DNA from: Pseudolabrys sp.
GTDB lineage: Bacteria; Pseudomonadota; Alphaproteobacteria; Rhizobiales; Xanthobacteraceae
Assembly: GCA_026125925.1 (NCBI GenBank)
Contig: JAHCKF010000196.1
Location: forward strand, 1-6,758
Direction: 5' to 3'
Length of the DNA stretch: 6,758 bases
A program made the translations under genes and the position numbers. The notes under the pieces are model-generated. The model saw only the letters and a program-made list of their open reading frames with translations. It did not search any database and had not been told where the DNA came from. How positions within the stretch are numbered: the stretch's first letter is position 1; the number at the start of each line of letters is the position of its first letter. This document shows, piece after piece, positions 1 through 6,297 of the stretch.

Positions 1-173
1 GCCCGGTCTGCCGGCCCGACTCCGAGTGCTACGACGTCGAGGTGAGCTTCTTCGGACCGGACAACGTGCTCAAGGCCAACCGGGTTTTCCGATACACGGT
101 CGATGTCAGCGACGTCATCCCGGTCACGATCGGCGACATCCGCACCTTCGCCAAACGCGGCTCAGGCACATAA
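1..173 (+). CDS. C-terminal end of a PatG-like RiPP maturation protease (partial)
   Basis: This is the 3' end of a gene that starts before the window. The frame runs from base 3 and ends at TAA 171-173, giving 56 residues. The tail contains SECYDVEVSFFGPDN, then RVFRYTVDVSDVIPVTIGD about ten residues from the end. From memory, a Cys-Tyr/Trp-Asp-Val block, 'FF-x-P-x-N', and a final 'TVDVSDV-x-PV-x-(I/V/L)-G' block are typical of the extreme C-terminus of PatG-type cyanobactin proteases. In that family this domain follows a subtilisin-like (S8) protease, which would lie off the window and is not visible here. The two Cys-rich peptide genes directly downstream on the same strand fit a maturation enzyme followed by its substrates. 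The coding frame is secure. The family call is moderate, because only the non-catalytic tail is seen. Confidence 0.55.
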   Translation, partial: PVCRPDSECYDVEVSFFGPDNVLKANRVFRYTVDVSDVIPVTIGDIRTFAKRGSGT

Positions 174-179
174 CGGTTT

Positions 180-198
180 CAGACGCCGCAAGCGTCTG
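180..198 (+). other. stem-loop after the PatG-like gene
   Basis: CAGACGC (180-186) pairs perfectly with GCGTCTG (192-198) around a 5-nt CGCAA loop, 6 nt after the upstream stop codon. No T-run follows, so it is a weak candidate for an intrinsic terminator. It could instead stabilise a 3' end or mark a processing point before the first peptide gene. The rest of the 82-nt spacer holds only the ribosome-binding site at 244-248. Confidence 0.35.
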
Positions 199-243
199 CG
201 GGTCATGCCCGTACCCCGAAACAAAACGCGGGCGATCGAGCGT

Positions 244-248
244 AGGAG
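244..248 (+). promoter_or_regulatory. ribosome-binding site that sets the peptide 1 start
   Basis: AGGAG lies 7 nt before ATG 256. The frame is open upstream to base 103, inside the preceding gene. This site and the MNLP start shared with the second peptide show that translation begins at 256. Confidence 0.75.
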
Positions 249-255
249 ACCATCC

Positions 256-426
256 ATGAACCTTCCCAAGCAATCGGCGCCGGTCCGGCGCAACGCATCG
301 GTGTCGGGTGTCAGGAGTAACGGCATTGCGCCGTCCGACTGCTGCGGATCCGGCAGTTGCTGCGTCGGCGCGTGCCTGTTCGGCCATTGCGCCGGAGCCT
401 GCGTCCCGAATATCGGGCAGTGCTGA
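256..426 (+). CDS. candidate RiPP precursor peptide 1, Cys-rich, 56 aa
   Basis: This gene encodes a 56-residue peptide. Residues 1-15 (MNLPKQSAPVRRNAS) are hydrophilic, free of Cys, and match the start of the next small gene at 10 of 15 positions, like a leader read by maturation enzymes. Residues 29-56 hold eight cysteines (29, 30, 35, 36, 40, 45, 49, 56) among Gly, Ala and Ser, and the last residue is Cys. Two units have the form C-x-G-A-C (36-40 and 45-49). There is no signal peptide or membrane segment, so export, if any, would follow processing. The start is fixed by AGGAG 7 nt upstream. The inferred role is substrate of the PatG-like protease, released as a disulfide- or thioether-bearing core. 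A small metal-binding protein is the main alternative. I cannot name a described peptide family. Confidence 0.75.
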   Translation: MNLPKQSAPVRRNASVSGVRSNGIAPSDCCGSGSCCVGACLFGHCAGACVPNIGQC

Positions 427-452
427 CCTCTTCGCTGGCATCGCGCCACGGA

Positions 453-480
453 CGCGTTCGCTGACAGCTCGGCGAGCGCG
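453..480 (+). other. 12-bp stem-loop between the two peptide genes
   Basis: Bases 453-464 pair with 469-480 around a CAGC tetraloop. The stem is continuous for 12 bp, including two G-U pairs. The structure sits 26 nt after the stop of peptide 1 and is followed by a pyrimidine-rich stretch (481-493) rather than a clear T-run. It may be a partial terminator or RNase barrier that sets the ratio of the two peptides. The rest of the 89-nt spacer holds only the ribosome-binding site of the second gene. Confidence 0.45.
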
Positions 481-515
481 CCCGTCCTTTCCCAATCAAC
501 CGGAGATCAAAGACG

Positions 516-692
516 ATGAATCTTCCTTTGCAAGCGCCACCCGTCAGCCGCCAGGCAAGCACGCATCATTACACCGCGGGGCACATTGCCGGTTCAGGCA
601 TCGCCTGCACGATATGCCGCGCCGCCTGCGACCAGCTCGGCGGCATCGCCAAGCAGCTCTGCCTCGCGGCTTGTGACCGGACGGTGTGCTGA
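516..692 (+). CDS. candidate RiPP precursor peptide 2, Cys-rich, 58 aa
   Basis: This gene encodes a 58-residue peptide paralogous to the one before it. Residues 1-15 (MNLPLQAPPVSRQAS) repeat the leader pattern MNLP-x-Q-x-x-PV-x-R-x-AS. A Gly-Ile-Ala triplet before the cysteines is also shared. The C-terminal part has six cysteines (31, 34, 38, 49, 53, 58) and again ends in Cys. It contains C-R-A-A-C (34-38) and C-L-A-A-C (49-53) ten residues apart, a CX3C-X10-CX3C layout. The segment between them could be helical, so a small helical hairpin held by two disulfides is one reading. The ribosome-binding site is a weaker GGAG at 502-505, 10 nt before ATG. It is probably expressed with peptide 1 as a second substrate of the same pathway; this is inference from context and the shared leader. 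Confidence 0.72.
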   Translation: MNLPLQAPPVSRQASTHHYTAGHIAGSGIACTICRAACDQLGGIAKQLCLAACDRTVC

Positions 693-700
693 CCGCGTCG

Positions 701-727
701 CGGCGACCGCGAACCCCGCGGTCGCCG
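701..727. terminator. strong hairpin, probable bidirectional terminator
   Basis: Bases 701-711 (CGGCGACCGCG) pair perfectly with 717-727 around the 5-nt loop AACCC, an 11-bp GC-rich stem. It fills the 42-nt gap between two convergent genes, 8 nt after the stop of peptide 2 and 7 nt beyond the stop of the minus-strand gene. Neither side has a good T-run, so efficiency as an intrinsic terminator is uncertain. Its position strongly suggests a 3'-end structure for both transcripts. Confidence 0.6.
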
Positions 728-734
728 TCGTCGC

Positions 735-1460
735 TCACTCGACCTTCTGGAACAACGAACCCCAGCCGGTGACCTGCTTGGGATCGGCACCGGCGACGAT
801 CAGGCTCTTCCATACGACCGTGGCGATGGTGTCGTAGACCGGCAGGCCGGTGGCGCGCTCGAGCTTCTCGGTGAGCGGCGCGGCGCGCAGATTGGTGCAG
901 ATGATGGCGATGGCCTGCGGCTTCGCCCTGGCGACCTCCATCGTCATCTCCTCGAGCTGCTGCGGCTCGACCTCGGCGAAGGAGAAATTGTCTTGCAGGT
1001 TGAGGTGGCGCTCGGCGGCGCAGCCGACGCCGATGTTCTCATAGTTTTGCAGGATCTTGCGCTGCACGTCGTCGCGATAGGGCGTGACGTAGCCGAGCTT
1101 CGTCACGCCGGTCTTCTTCAGGATCTCGTTGAGCGCCAGCATCGAGGTCGTGGCCGGGACGCCGGTTGCCGCCGTGATGCGCTCGCACAGTTTCACGTCA
1201 CGCTCGAAGCCGAGCCAGCCTGACGACGTGCCATTCCAGGCGATGCAGGCGACCTTGGCATGCGCCAGCAATTCGGCCGCGCGCAGGATCTCGCTATCGT
1301 CGAATTGCGCCAGCGCGCCCGGCGACAGCGCGATCTCCGTCACCTTGAAGCGCGAGAAGTGCGCCGACACTTGCGGCAGTCCAGCGACCATCGCCTGGGT
1401 AATCGGCTCGAGCGACGTGTTCGACGACGGCGTCAGCATGCCCAGCCTGACCCGCTTCAT
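735..1460 (-). CDS. Asp/Glu racemase superfamily enzyme, arylmalonate decarboxylase/maleate isomerase type
   Basis: This 241-aa protein has the N-terminal MLTPSSNT-x-x-E signature (8-18) of the maleate isomerase/arylmalonate decarboxylase (AMDase) branch, whose members are about 240-250 aa. The second catalytic Cys is present at 188 (IICTNLRAAP). The first active-site loop reads AWNGTSSGWLG (74-84), so a Gly (77) followed by Thr-Ser stands where racemases and isomerases carry their first Cys. AMDase from Bordetella has this Gly-Thr-Ser plus single Cys188 arrangement and decarboxylates disubstituted malonates. A cytoplasmic decarboxylase or lyase-like activity on a small dicarboxylate is inferred; the substrate is unknown. 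The start at 1460 has GAGGGG 5 nt upstream. The frame stays open to 1622, but that Ala/Arg-rich extension would overlap the upstream transporter gene and lacks family features. It probably shares a transcript with the transporter pair 74 nt upstream. Confidence 0.85.
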   Translation of the reverse strand: MKRVRLGMLTPSSNTSLEPITQAMVAGLPQVSAHFSRFKVTEIALSPGALAQFDDSEILRAAELLAHAKVACIAWNGTSSGWLGFERDVKLCERITAATGVPATTSMLALNEILKKTGVTKLGYVTPYRDDVQRKILQNYENIGVGCAAERHLNLQDNFSFAEVEPQQLEEMTMEVARAKPQAIAIICTNLRAAPLTEKLERATGLPVYDTIATVVWKSLIVAGADPKQVTGWGSLFQKVE

Positions 1461-3493: not shown

Positions 3494-3511
3494 GGAGACT
3501 GTGACGTCACA
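3493..3511 (+). promoter_or_regulatory. scsB ribosome-binding site with abutting 12-bp palindrome
   Basis: GGGAG at 3493-3497 is the only plausible ribosome-binding site, an unusually long 13 nt before ATG 3511. The gap is filled by the perfect palindrome TGTGACGTCACA (3500-3511), whose last base is the A of the start codon. Its arms, TGTGA and TCACA, are those of CRP/FNR-type sites, but the spacing is 2 rather than 6. It may be an operator or only a chance palindrome. Confidence 0.35.
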
Positions 3512-5649
3512 TGCCGAACCGTTTTAGCCATTTCGCCTTCGCCGCCATCGTCGCGCTGACGGTCTTCGTCAGTCCGTCATCAGCGCAGTTCGTCAACACC
3601 GCCGCCAAACCGGACTTCAACGCGCGGCTGATCGTCGGCGGTGCCGACAGGAATGATCCTTCCGCGAACTGGCTCGGCCTCGCGGTTCGCCTCGGGCCGG
3701 GCTGGCACACTTATTGGCGATCGGCTGGCGATGCCGGCGCGCCGCCGGAATTCGACTGGAGCAGCTCGACGAATATCGATGAGCCCACGATCGAGTGGCC
3801 GGCCCCGCGGCGCTTCAGTGACGCCGGCATCGACAGCTTCGGCTATGCCGACAAGGTTGTGCTGCCGATCAAGGTCCGCGTCCGCGATTCGCAGAAGCCT
3901 GCCGATGTCTCGCTCAAGCTCGCCCTGTATGTCTGCAGCACGATCTGTACGCGGAACGACCTGAGCTTCGACGCCAGGATTACACCGGGCCAACGGTCCG
4001 GCGAACAACTCGGCCTTATCGATCGGTGGCGAACGCGCGTGCCCCGCCCTCATTCGCCCAACCTGGCAATTCGGTCGCTGGATCTGCAAACGGCAAACCC
4101 TGGTGCGCTGCGGATCGAGGCGACCTCGACGTCAGGCTTCGCCGCCTCCGACGTCTTCGTCGACGGCGACGATGCCATTCTGGCGGGGCACCCGAAGGTG
4201 GCGATGAATGGCGCCAACGAGGCTGTCATCACCGTGCCGATCGACGGCGTCGAGAAACGGAATGCCGACAAACCGCTACGCGTGACGCTGGTTGCCGGCG
4301 GCAACGCCGTCGAAGCCACAGTGCCGGCGCCGCAGGCGCCGGCTGCCGTGCGAACGGGTGCGGGCCCTGCCAATTCCGCTATTGCCGGAACGGATATTTC
4401 GAAGGCGAACCTTGCCGGAGCGGGCCACGCAGAAAAGACGACGGGCATTCTGCCGATCCTCGCAGCCGCCCTGATCGGCGGCTTCATCCTCAACTTCATG
4501 CCCTGCGTCTTCCCGGTCCTGTCACTCAAGATGATGTCGCTGCTCGGCCAGACATCGCGCGACATGGGCGCCTTGCGCATTCGCTTCATCGCCTCGGCGG
4601 CTGGCGTCATCACCTCGTTTGTTCTGCTGGCGACAGCGCTCGCCGCGTTGAAGAGTGCCGGCGCGCAAATCGGCTGGGGCATCCAGTTTCAGCAGCCGCT
4701 GTTTCTGGGCGGCATGGCCGCCATCCTCGTGGCGCTCAGCGCCAACCTGCTCGACCTTTATGAAATCCGGCTGCCGTGGCGGCTGGGCAATCTGCTCGGC
4801 CGCTCCGGCGGCGGCCAGTCGGTCGCATCGTACTTCTTCAACGGCTTCATCATGACGCTGCTAGCGACGCCGTGCTCGGCGCCGTTTGTCGGCACGGCCG
4901 TCGGTTTCGCGCTATCGCAAGGGACCTGGCAGATCCTCGCTATCTTCGCCGCGCTCGGCGTCGGCATGGCTTCGCCTTATCTCGCGCTCGCGCTCGTGCC
5001 CCAAGTGGCGCGGCTGTTTCCGCGACCGGGCCGCTGGATGCAGACACTGCGCCAGCTTGCCGCCCTGGCCATGGCGGGTGCCGCAATCTGGCTGCTCTGG
5101 ATTCTCAGCGAGATCAGCGGTTCACGAACCGCCGTGATCGCCGGCACAGCATTGGGACTAATGGTGTGGGCGGTCGCGCTCTACCAACGCCGGCACGCGC
5201 ACGCGATCGCCGGTGTAGTGATGGCTAGCCTCGCGGCTACGGCGATCCTCATTGCCGGAGAGCGGACCGTTCCGACCGCCTCCAAGGCGGCCGATGGTGT
5301 CCCATGGCAAACCTTTGCGCCGCCGGATGTCGCAACGCTGGTGCGCAGCGGCCACACGGTGTTCGTCGATATCGGCGCCGCCTGGTGCGTGACCTGCAAG
5401 GTCAACGAGCGGTTGATCATCAACAGCAGCACGATCCGGCAGCGCCTGCTCGCCGATGTCGTGCCGCTGCAAGGTGACTGGACCAAGCCCGACCCCACCA
5501 TCGCCGCCTATCTCAAGTCGTTCGGACGCTTCGGACTTCCTTTCAATGCCGTGTTCGGGCCGGGCGCTCCGGACGGCATCGTGCTCCCCGAACTGCTGAC
5601 GCAGCAAGCGGTTCTCGCCGCTTTCGACGCAGCATCCACCCGCCCCTGA
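3511..5649 (+). CDS. scsB: ScsB-like DsbD-family membrane thiol-disulfide reductase
   Basis: This 712-aa inner-membrane protein has three parts. A signal peptide (about 1-25, ending SPSSAQ) leads to a periplasmic N-terminal domain with the pair C142-x3-C146 (YVCSTICTRND). A membrane domain of about eight helices (312-583) carries the two conserved cysteines in MPCVFP (C332) and ATPCSAPF (C455). The C-terminal periplasmic thioredoxin-like domain has W-C-V-T-C (C626, C629) and a probable cis-Pro at FGLPF (P677). In DsbD/ScsB proteins electrons pass from cytoplasmic thioredoxin through the membrane cysteines to the C-terminal domain, then the N-terminal domain, then a periplasmic partner. All six expected cysteines are present. 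The partner is probably the scsC-like gene 15 nt downstream. The frame is closed at 3502, so ATG 3511 is the first available start. The long N-terminal region and the C-x3-C pair favour ScsB over classical DsbD. Confidence 0.92.
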   Translation: MPNRFSHFAFAAIVALTVFVSPSSAQFVNTAAKPDFNARLIVGGADRNDPSANWLGLAVRLGPGWHTYWRSAGDAGAPPEFDWSSSTNIDEPTIEWPAPRRFSDAGIDSFGYADKVVLPIKVRVRDSQKPADVSLKLALYVCSTICTRNDLSFDARITPGQRSGEQLGLIDRWRTRVPRPHSPNLAIRSLDLQTANPGALRIEATSTSGFAASDVFVDGDDAILAGHPKVAMNGANEAVITVPIDGVEKRNADKPLRVTLVAGGNAVEATVPAPQAPAAVRTGAGPANSAIAGTDISKANLAGAGHAEKTTGILPILAAALIGGFILNFMPCVFPVLSLKMMSLLGQTSRDMGALRIRFIASAAGVITSFVLLATALAALKSAGAQIGWGIQFQQPLFLGGMAAILVALSANLLDLYEIRLPWRLGNLLGRSGGGQSVASYFFNGFIMTLLATPCSAPFVGTAVGFALSQGTWQILAIFAALGVGMASPYLALALVPQVARLFPRPGRWMQTLRQLAALAMAGAAIWLLWILSEISGSRTAVIAGTALGLMVWAVALYQRRHAHAIAGVVMASLAATAILIAGERTVPTASKAADGVPWQTFAPPDVATLVRSGHTVFVDIGAAWCVTCKVNERLIINSSTIRQRLLADVVPLQGDWTKPDPTIAAYLKSFGRFGLPFNAVFGPGAPDGIVLPELLTQQAVLAAFDAASTRP

Positions 5650-5664
5650 ACAGGAGAACTCACC

Positions 5665-6297
5665 ATGGCCATCAGATTTTTGCGTTTGGTTTCCGTACTC
5701 GCCGTCGCCACCGCCCTGCAAGCGCCCGGCGCTCTGGCGCAGTCGGCTAATCAGGATCCGCTCAGCACGGCCAGCATCCTGCACGACCCCGATATTCCGG
5801 TGCTCGGCAACCCGAAAGGCGACGTCACCATCGTAGAGTACTTCGACTACCGCTGTCCGTACTGCAAGAAGGTCAGCCCGGTGCTGCAAAAGCTCATCAG
5901 CGAGGACCGGGGGCTGCGGCTGGTCTTCAAGGACTGGCCGGTCTTCGGCGACGTCTCGATCTATGCGGCCCGGCTTGTCTTCGCCGCGAAATATCAAAAC
6001 AAGTATACGGAAGCGCACGAGGCATTGATCTCGGCGCAGGAGAAGCTGACCGAAGCCAATGTGCAGAGCATGCTGACGCAAGCCGGCGTCGACGTGCCGC
6101 GGGCCCAGCAGGACCTCGAAACCCATCGCAAGGAAATTGACGCAGTGCTGGCTCGCAACCACGAGCAGGCGATGGCCCTCGGCTTCCAGGGCACGCCCGG
6201 ATTCATCATCGGCAAATTCCGCGTGCCGGGCGCGATGGATGAGAAAAACTTCAAGCTGGCGATCGCCGAGTCTCGCGCCGCAGCCAAGAAGAAATAG
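5665..6297 (+). CDS. scsC: ScsC-like periplasmic DsbA-family thiol-disulfide protein
   Basis: This 210-aa protein has a signal peptide (1-25, ending PGALAQ) and a thioredoxin fold with an inserted helical domain. The active site is FDYRCPYCKK with C64 and C67, and the cis-Pro loop is GTPGF (176-180, P178). The stretch D-W-P-V-F-G-x-V-S (90-98) matches the 'P-(I/V)-x-G-x-x-S' block common in ScsC and BdbD-like proteins. ScsC proteins are kept reduced by ScsB and act as periplasmic disulfide reductases or isomerases, protecting clients under copper or peroxide stress. The segment between signal and thioredoxin domain is only about 27 residues, so the long trimerising stalk of some ScsC proteins appears absent. 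The start has AGGAG 8 nt upstream and the gene follows scsB by 15 nt, so they are probably co-transcribed. An oxidising DsbA-like role is the alternative, less likely given its ScsB neighbour. Confidence 0.9.
   Translation: MAIRFLRLVSVLAVATALQAPGALAQSANQDPLSTASILHDPDIPVLGNPKGDVTIVEYFDYRCPYCKKVSPVLQKLISEDRGLRLVFKDWPVFGDVSIYAARLVFAAKYQNKYTEAHEALISAQEKLTEANVQSMLTQAGVDVPRAQQDLETHRKEIDAVLARNHEQAMALGFQGTPGFIIGKFRVPGAMDEKNFKLAIAESRAAAKKK

Follow-up and report, generated by a model that had tools for sequence, protein, structure and literature searches.

Two small cysteine-rich genes behind a PatA-type protease gene in Pseudolabrys, a likely protease-only relative of cyanobactin pathways

The DNA analysed here, a 6,758-nucleotide contig of Pseudolabrys sp. 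(JAHCKF010000196.1; "the window" denotes this whole stretch), opens with the 3' end of a PatA/PatG-family protease gene and continues on the same strand with two small genes whose products are dense in cysteine. Are these small genes real, are their products substrates of the protease, and what kind of peptide would be released from them? An earlier note, made from the letters alone, had proposed a locus for ribosomally synthesized and post-translationally modified peptides (RiPPs), with two precursors beside a maturation protease. We consider it likely that the locus represents a minimal relative of cyanobactin pathways, with the protease as its only enzyme, and that it releases linear cysteine-rich miniproteins; what we say of cleavage, disulfides, export and function is inferred from sequence.

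The protease and the small genes behind it

The gene that ends at position 173 (3..173, + strand, the remainder lying outside the window) matches the PatG_C domain (Pfam PF18065) with an E-value of 5.5e-13 and 49.4 bits against a cut-off of 25.9. A Pseudolabrys metagenome-assembled genome (MAG; locus L001) contains the complete locus, with an identical peptide 1 protein, a 98% identical peptide 2, and the gene order carB, greA, protease, peptide 1, peptide 2, a racemase-length frame and a chromate transporter. Its protease has 659 residues (L001:5678-7657) with S8, PatG_D and PatG_C domains, so the S8 domain that was to be sought upstream is present there, and it scores 580 bits to TIGR03895, above the cut-off. 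The best solved relatives of this protease are PatA/PagA at 255 bits, versus 134 bits for the PatG macrocyclase. The enzyme, which the note had called PatG-like, is thus rather of the A type by sequence, its nearest counterpart being the N-terminal protease PatA of cyanobactin pathways; this is read from L001, as the window itself contains only the PatG_C tail. About 45 PatG residues have no match in the protease model, and the PatG macrocyclase insert is apparently missing. No other maturation genes were found among the eight L001 frames scanned with Pfam (to about 10.4 kb). At least 2580 relatives of the protease were found at E 1e-30 or better (7994 candidates scored); the 120 that were listed include proteases of cultured genera, Labrys, Bradyrhizobium and Mesorhizobium among them, and 14 and 25 of the 120 were aligned (A3 and A4). 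A match in L002 (Saprospiraceae) was discarded as chance, having no corresponding + strand frame in the list of open reading frames (ORFs).

Precursor gene 1 (256..426, 56 amino acids, eight cysteines) and precursor gene 2 (516..692, 58 amino acids, six cysteines) follow in tandem on the + strand, both ending in cysteine, where the earlier note had placed them, and both products fit its leader pattern MNLPxQxxPVxRxAS exactly. Spurious ORFs are ruled out by homologues, by mostly synonymous changes and by linkage to the protease, and because the leader pattern is also in excess in protease loci, the pair of small genes behind a PatG_C-tailed gene is confirmed as a real finding, beyond chance. 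Between the window and the MAG, peptide 1 shows three synonymous and no non-synonymous changes and peptide 2 two synonymous and one non-synonymous, a pattern which, over few sites, agrees with purifying selection on both frames.

Searches with PF18065 in three overlapping sets of genomes gave hits in 3 of 150, 2 of 385 and 8 of 397, which together make 12 places in 10 genomes, and the system is therefore rare. An S8 domain, recognized by Pfam or by tblastn, is present at ten PatG_C places, and nine of these (L001, L011, L012, L022, L023, L024, L025, L026 and L028) are immediately followed, on the same strand, by one or more cysteine-rich small genes; at the tenth, L014, no precursor was recognized. 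The start-anchored pattern M..P.Q..P..R finds the small genes in seven of the nine loci (six of them protease-derived, and L001 by its own sequence), while those of L026 and L028, which have more divergent leaders, were recognized by eye, as were precursors in L009 and one in L040; all of these fall outside the leader patterns. In the reverse direction, the peptide-1 model matches in 4 of 251 genomes, each time beside a protease, the match in G556 being weak (E 8.5e-4). L041 carries three precursor types, including relatives of both window peptides. With nine of ten in the forward and four of four in the reverse direction, a precursor with leader and core is genetically linked to a maturation enzyme, which supports the proposal of a RiPP-type locus; the only processing of the precursors predicted here is proteolysis.

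In the 16 protease-derived loci, which amount to 314,824 bases read in six frames, M..P.Q..P..R was counted 13 times where simulation gave a mean of 0.45. By their coordinates, all 13 occurrences are on the strand of the protease gene and downstream of it; many of the peptides had already been seen when the pattern was written. The strict form M.LP.Q..PV.R occurs twice there (simulated mean 0), and MNLP.Q..PV.R, as the earlier note had it, not at all. A wider pattern gives 18 matches in 18 loci against a simulated mean of 0.85, but it was widened after some sequences had been seen and L001, L040 and L041 entered via their peptides, so the 16-locus count is the fairer one. Leader-bearing small genes do therefore recur next to such protease genes elsewhere, as had been expected.

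Several loci depart from this layout. In L006/L013 (G055:C50) and L027 (G559:C1), PatG_D and PatG_C stand without S8, as stand-alone domains of unknown function (DUFs), and no precursor was recognized nearby (for L006/L013 by pattern scans only). The protease gene of L023 (8951-10619) is shortened and split over two frames, with the downstream small genes open. A further type of small gene is found at L022 10374, L023 8871 and L012 9348, in loci of the xQS protease clade described below; its product begins much as the leaders do, has the stretch NPCL[VI]QL.TF at its C-terminal side and only one or two cysteines, and is possibly an accessory comparable to PatB, whose Gloeothece copy starts MRLPKLAPPVKR.

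Leaders, cut motif and cores

The leader of peptide 1, MNLPKQSAPVRR (256..291), contains PxxxxPVxR, as does that of peptide 2, MNLPLQAPPVSR (516..551). According to passages in PMC3428304, the conserved leader motif of cyanobactin precursors is KKNxxPxxxxPVxR; in the window KK is absent and MN-x-P stands in its place. Peptide 1 has 25 relatives (named carriers are Ancylobacter, Phenylobacterium, Mesorhizobium and Aquibium), and the alignment reads M-x-L-P-x-Q-x-x-P-V-x-R, a variable spacer, [GATRVM][ILV]x[PA]S, and then a core with the consensus DCCGxGxCCVGACLPFGGCAGxCVPNIGQC. The motif [ILV]x[PA]S lies one residue ahead of the first cysteine in 26 of 26 sequences (mean in shuffled spacers, 0.65 of 26) and is preceded by glycine in 16. 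It resembles, as a sequence, the PatA site G(L/V)E(A/P)S, after which the PatA-like cut (RSII) lies according to part of PMC10885120, although the glutamate of that site is absent in the window. Here the putative motif is GIAPS (322..336), with a cut predicted after Ser27 and a putative core of 29 residues and eight cysteines, DCCGSGSCCVGACLFGHCAGACVPNIGQC (337..423), the most conserved part of the peptide-1 family.

Peptide 2 has the relatives P0002-P0004 and one in L041, and its six cysteines are invariant across six aligned sequences (A6). Alignment with peptide 1 puts HIAGS (582..596) at the equivalent position, a weaker fit with glycine for proline or alanine, followed by a putative core of 31 residues and six cysteines, GIACTICRAACDQLGGIAKQLCLAACDRTVC (597..689). 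Variants at this position are HIAGS, HIASS, HVTGS, QVTAS and GVNAA. The Gly-Ile-Ala triplet that the earlier note described as common to the two peptides is present in both but is not homologous, since in peptide 1 it stands ahead of the putative cut (GIAPS|D) and in peptide 2 behind it (HIAGS|GIAC); the motif truly aligned between them is xIAxS.

The conserved leader with variable core that the note took as typical of RiPPs holds between the paralogues of one locus but is inverted between orthologues, because changes are few in the peptide-1 core compared with the part before it: between species, the core is the most conserved part. By Nei-Gojobori counts across six peptide-1 genes, which with few sites are indications only, synonymous changes per pair range from 1 to 15 in the cores and non-synonymous ones from 0 to 9.7, and the parts before the core differ by 0 to 35.7 non-synonymous changes; the clearest pair is L040/L041, with 15 synonymous and no non-synonymous changes in the core.

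The motif ahead of the core varies with the protease. Precursors of L011, L012, L022 and L023 have xQS there, and their proteases form one clade (support 1.000); the proteases of L026 and L028 form another (1.000), with IEPA and looser forms of motif, which L026c and L028b do not fit. Similar cores follow different motifs: the peptide-1 core follows AVQS in L023 and LAPS, IAPS or VTAS in L024, L040 and L041, and the type-B core follows LMQS/ATQS in L011/L022 and VEPS/VTPS/IHPS in L024/L025/L041. Shared descent explains part of the concordance between motif and clade, but a motif that changes ahead of similar cores is best accounted for by protease specificity. Peptide 2 fits the motif only loosely, and the type-B peptide of L040 (VGLS) does not fit it.

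NCBIfam cyanobactin precursor models match relatives of the window peptides below cut-off only, and none of the precursor peptides scanned reached an NCBIfam cut-off. Peptide searches on plasmids gave no match. An AlphaFold model of peptide 1 (mean pLDDT 62) was discarded, and the single match of a PDB profile search with the peptide-1 alignment (E 0.63) was taken as chance.

A possible mechanism and its alternatives

The sequence gives an operon-like row: a PatA-type subtilisin with C-terminal PatG_D/PatG_C, then two small genes with PxxxxPVxR in their leaders. With good support, the protease probably recognizes both precursors, and its cut, placed after [ILV]x[PA]S in peptide 1 and after HIAGS in peptide 2, would release the two linear cores. 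Macrocyclization would not take place, because the precursors have no follower, the search for another S8-PatG_C protease gave none, and the insert of the macrocyclase is apparently missing. With less support, the cysteines may form disulfides or bind metal rather than become azolines. Since its core is nearly fixed between genera, our guess is that peptide 1 always does the same job, for example in signalling or the handling of metals, and is not a fast-changing bacteriocin.

According to passages of the 2014 structure paper (PMC4259220), the DUF of PatG showed no binding of the PatE' precursor, plain or heterocyclized, by nuclear magnetic resonance, an isothermal titration calorimetry curve was put down to aggregation, and the role of the conserved cyanobactin DUF was left open. 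This speaks against simple leader binding by the DUF, the one assayed being that of PatG and not of PatA. We retain leader reading by the DUF because no other candidate protein for it was recognized near the solo loci. It is conceivable, though doubtful, that the solo loci are a reduced or ancestral cyanobactin pathway in which PatG_D/PatG_C reads PxQxxPVxR and presents the precursor, and whose products are folded cysteine-rich miniproteins instead of cyclic metabolites, peptide 1 remaining nearly unchanged between genera because its role is constant.

Could tailoring enzymes act on the precursors, so that the protease merely strips the leader as a last step? A RiPP leader motif set well before the cut motif, as here, usually serves tailoring enzymes, and YcaO is present in 4 of the 10 genomes. 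In G001 and the five others it had no match (genome completeness not given), and besides the protease no neighbour family (frames of at least 80 amino acids) recurs in more than two of 14 loci. Pfam recognized no domain in six of 20 flanking frames; the remaining ones have transposase, HTH, AAA, ClpB, LepA, TetR, SSB, potassium transporter, reprolysin-like and trypsin-like peptidase, FAD oxidoreductase and similar domains; none of these 14 is a typical RiPP tailoring domain, save possibly the FAD-dependent oxidoreductase beside L024, and LanM, radical SAM and MNIO were not searched genome-wide. We think this reading rather unlikely. A little less probable still is that the system is decaying in the lineage of the window, with the precursors persisting while the protease fails. 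The protease of the MAG lacks about 25 residues including AAAGND, which 13 other aligned relatives keep, and the split protease of L023 points the same way; however, the gap in the MAG could be a real loss or an assembly fault, the closest other orthologues (P0031-P0033) are intact at AAAGND, and the precursor frames are open with mostly synonymous changes.

That these are canonical macrocyclic cyanobactins, with cores cyclized by a second (G) protease elsewhere, is highly improbable in spite of the shared protease family and leader motif. Both precursors end at the core cysteine without an RSIII (AYDG/FAGD-like) follower, the insert of the macrocyclase is apparently missing, and no second PatG_C place with S8 was found in the 10 genomes, which may be incomplete: G001 has one PatG_C place, and in G055 and in G559 the second place is the one without S8. 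It is also very unlikely that the small genes encode cysteine-rich metal-binding proteins that act uncut, the protease being unrelated. The near constancy of the peptide-1 core between genera would suit such a role, and CopL (NF033807) weakly matches 2 of 26 family members (best E 0.0023), the window peptide having no match up to E 1; against it stand the linkage of protease and precursor in both directions, the leader motif common with cyanobactin precursors, and the switch of cut motif with protease clade.

The likely protease-only pathway shares with the cyanobactins (patellamide pat, piricyclamide pir) a PatA-family protease with a PatG_D/PatG_C region and the leader PxxxxPVxR, and its putative cut motif is similar to G(L/V)E(A/P)S; in having several precursor genes per locus it is like pir. 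It differs in that no G protease or macrocyclase, no C-terminal recognition sequence and no recurrent PatD/PatF was found, in putative cores of about 17-53 residues from precursors with 4-10 cysteines, and in loci that are mostly alphaproteobacterial. No recurrent neighbour was seen among frames of at least 80 amino acids in 14 loci, a length that passes over the shorter PatB and PatC, whose models were run on part of the flanks only. Passages in PMC3428304 report disulfide-bridged piricyclamides, and an inactive pir cluster in NIES843 without PatD. NHLP/Nif11 precursors likewise have a common leader with differing cores, some in tandem, but the leader is another one, and their clusters appear, from part of PMC4603692, to be without PatA/G-like proteases.

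Relatives, flanking features and significance

The class is not purely proteobacterial, as the note had suggested that it might be: plasmids of Gloeocapsa and Nostoc have similar precursors following proteases of this kind, and the cyanobactin motif is present in the leader. A Gloeocapsa plasmid encodes a protease with 44% identity over 96% to the one studied here, and downstream of it we read MKLPVQAAPVQR...GIKPS and then a stretch with 10 cysteines, where the incomplete gene table of PLSDB has no gene. A Nostoc plasmid precursor, annotated as hypothetical, reads MNLPIQSKPIFR...AGITPS with six cysteines, and one of Acaryochloris MRIPNQS...GGVQPS with four. The Gloeocapsa and Nostoc loci thus have the same order of solo protease and leader-bearing cysteine-rich small gene, but their hosts are cyanobacteria and their cores differ from those of peptides 1 and 2. 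On a Streptomyces plasmid, four small frames begin in a QAPPVCR-like manner, and three of them contain no cysteine; one, about 4 kb off on the other strand, has an exact GVEAS. From these four instances the class looks wider than Proteobacteria, with a cysteine-rich core that is common, not universal. On a Nostoc plasmid, the tblastn match of the protease (L035 11998-13302) jumps from query residue 196 to 414, and a second PatG DUF-like stretch (L035 23782-24609) lies about 10 kb from the protease.

In the passages of a 2015 review that concern distribution, cyanobactin clusters are identified in cyanobacteria only (PMC4663559). A cyanobactin peptidase gene has since been noted in another alphaproteobacterium, Roseomonas oryzae, with a new cyanobactin-like peptide suggested but no precursor described in that part of the paper (PMC8776678). 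We found no description of precursors such as these in the open-licence PMC literature.

Around the precursor genes, the window has likely ribosome-binding sites read from the sequence, AGGAG (244..248) for peptide 1 and GGAG (502..505) for peptide 2. A stem-loop lies between the two genes (427..512, + strand, fold -35.6 kcal/mol, z -3.13) and a strong one after peptide 2 (690..745, + strand, -33.2 kcal/mol, z -4.17); the latter lacks a T-run and is perhaps the end of the transcription unit. From beyond it a racemase-like gene converges on the precursor genes. Scans of L001 gave no promoter, and one terminator-like site versus 2.2 expected. Further downstream, 1535-2664 holds two frames of 181 and 195 amino acids, the second a chromate transporter by Pfam, and the L001 counterpart is a single chromate-transporter frame of 437 residues. 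Tandem DsbD-like (DsbD_N, DsbD_TM, thioredoxin) and DsbA-like genes occupy 3511-6297, a pair that we take to resemble a copper-sensitivity-suppressor pair.

A protease with its DUF and leader peptides makes a pathway small enough for a two-component assay of leader reading and cutting. Because the protease has so many relatives, with precursors sought only in the loci studied here, and no scanned precursor reaches an NCBIfam cut-off, the protease family points to an unannotated stock of cysteine-rich peptides.
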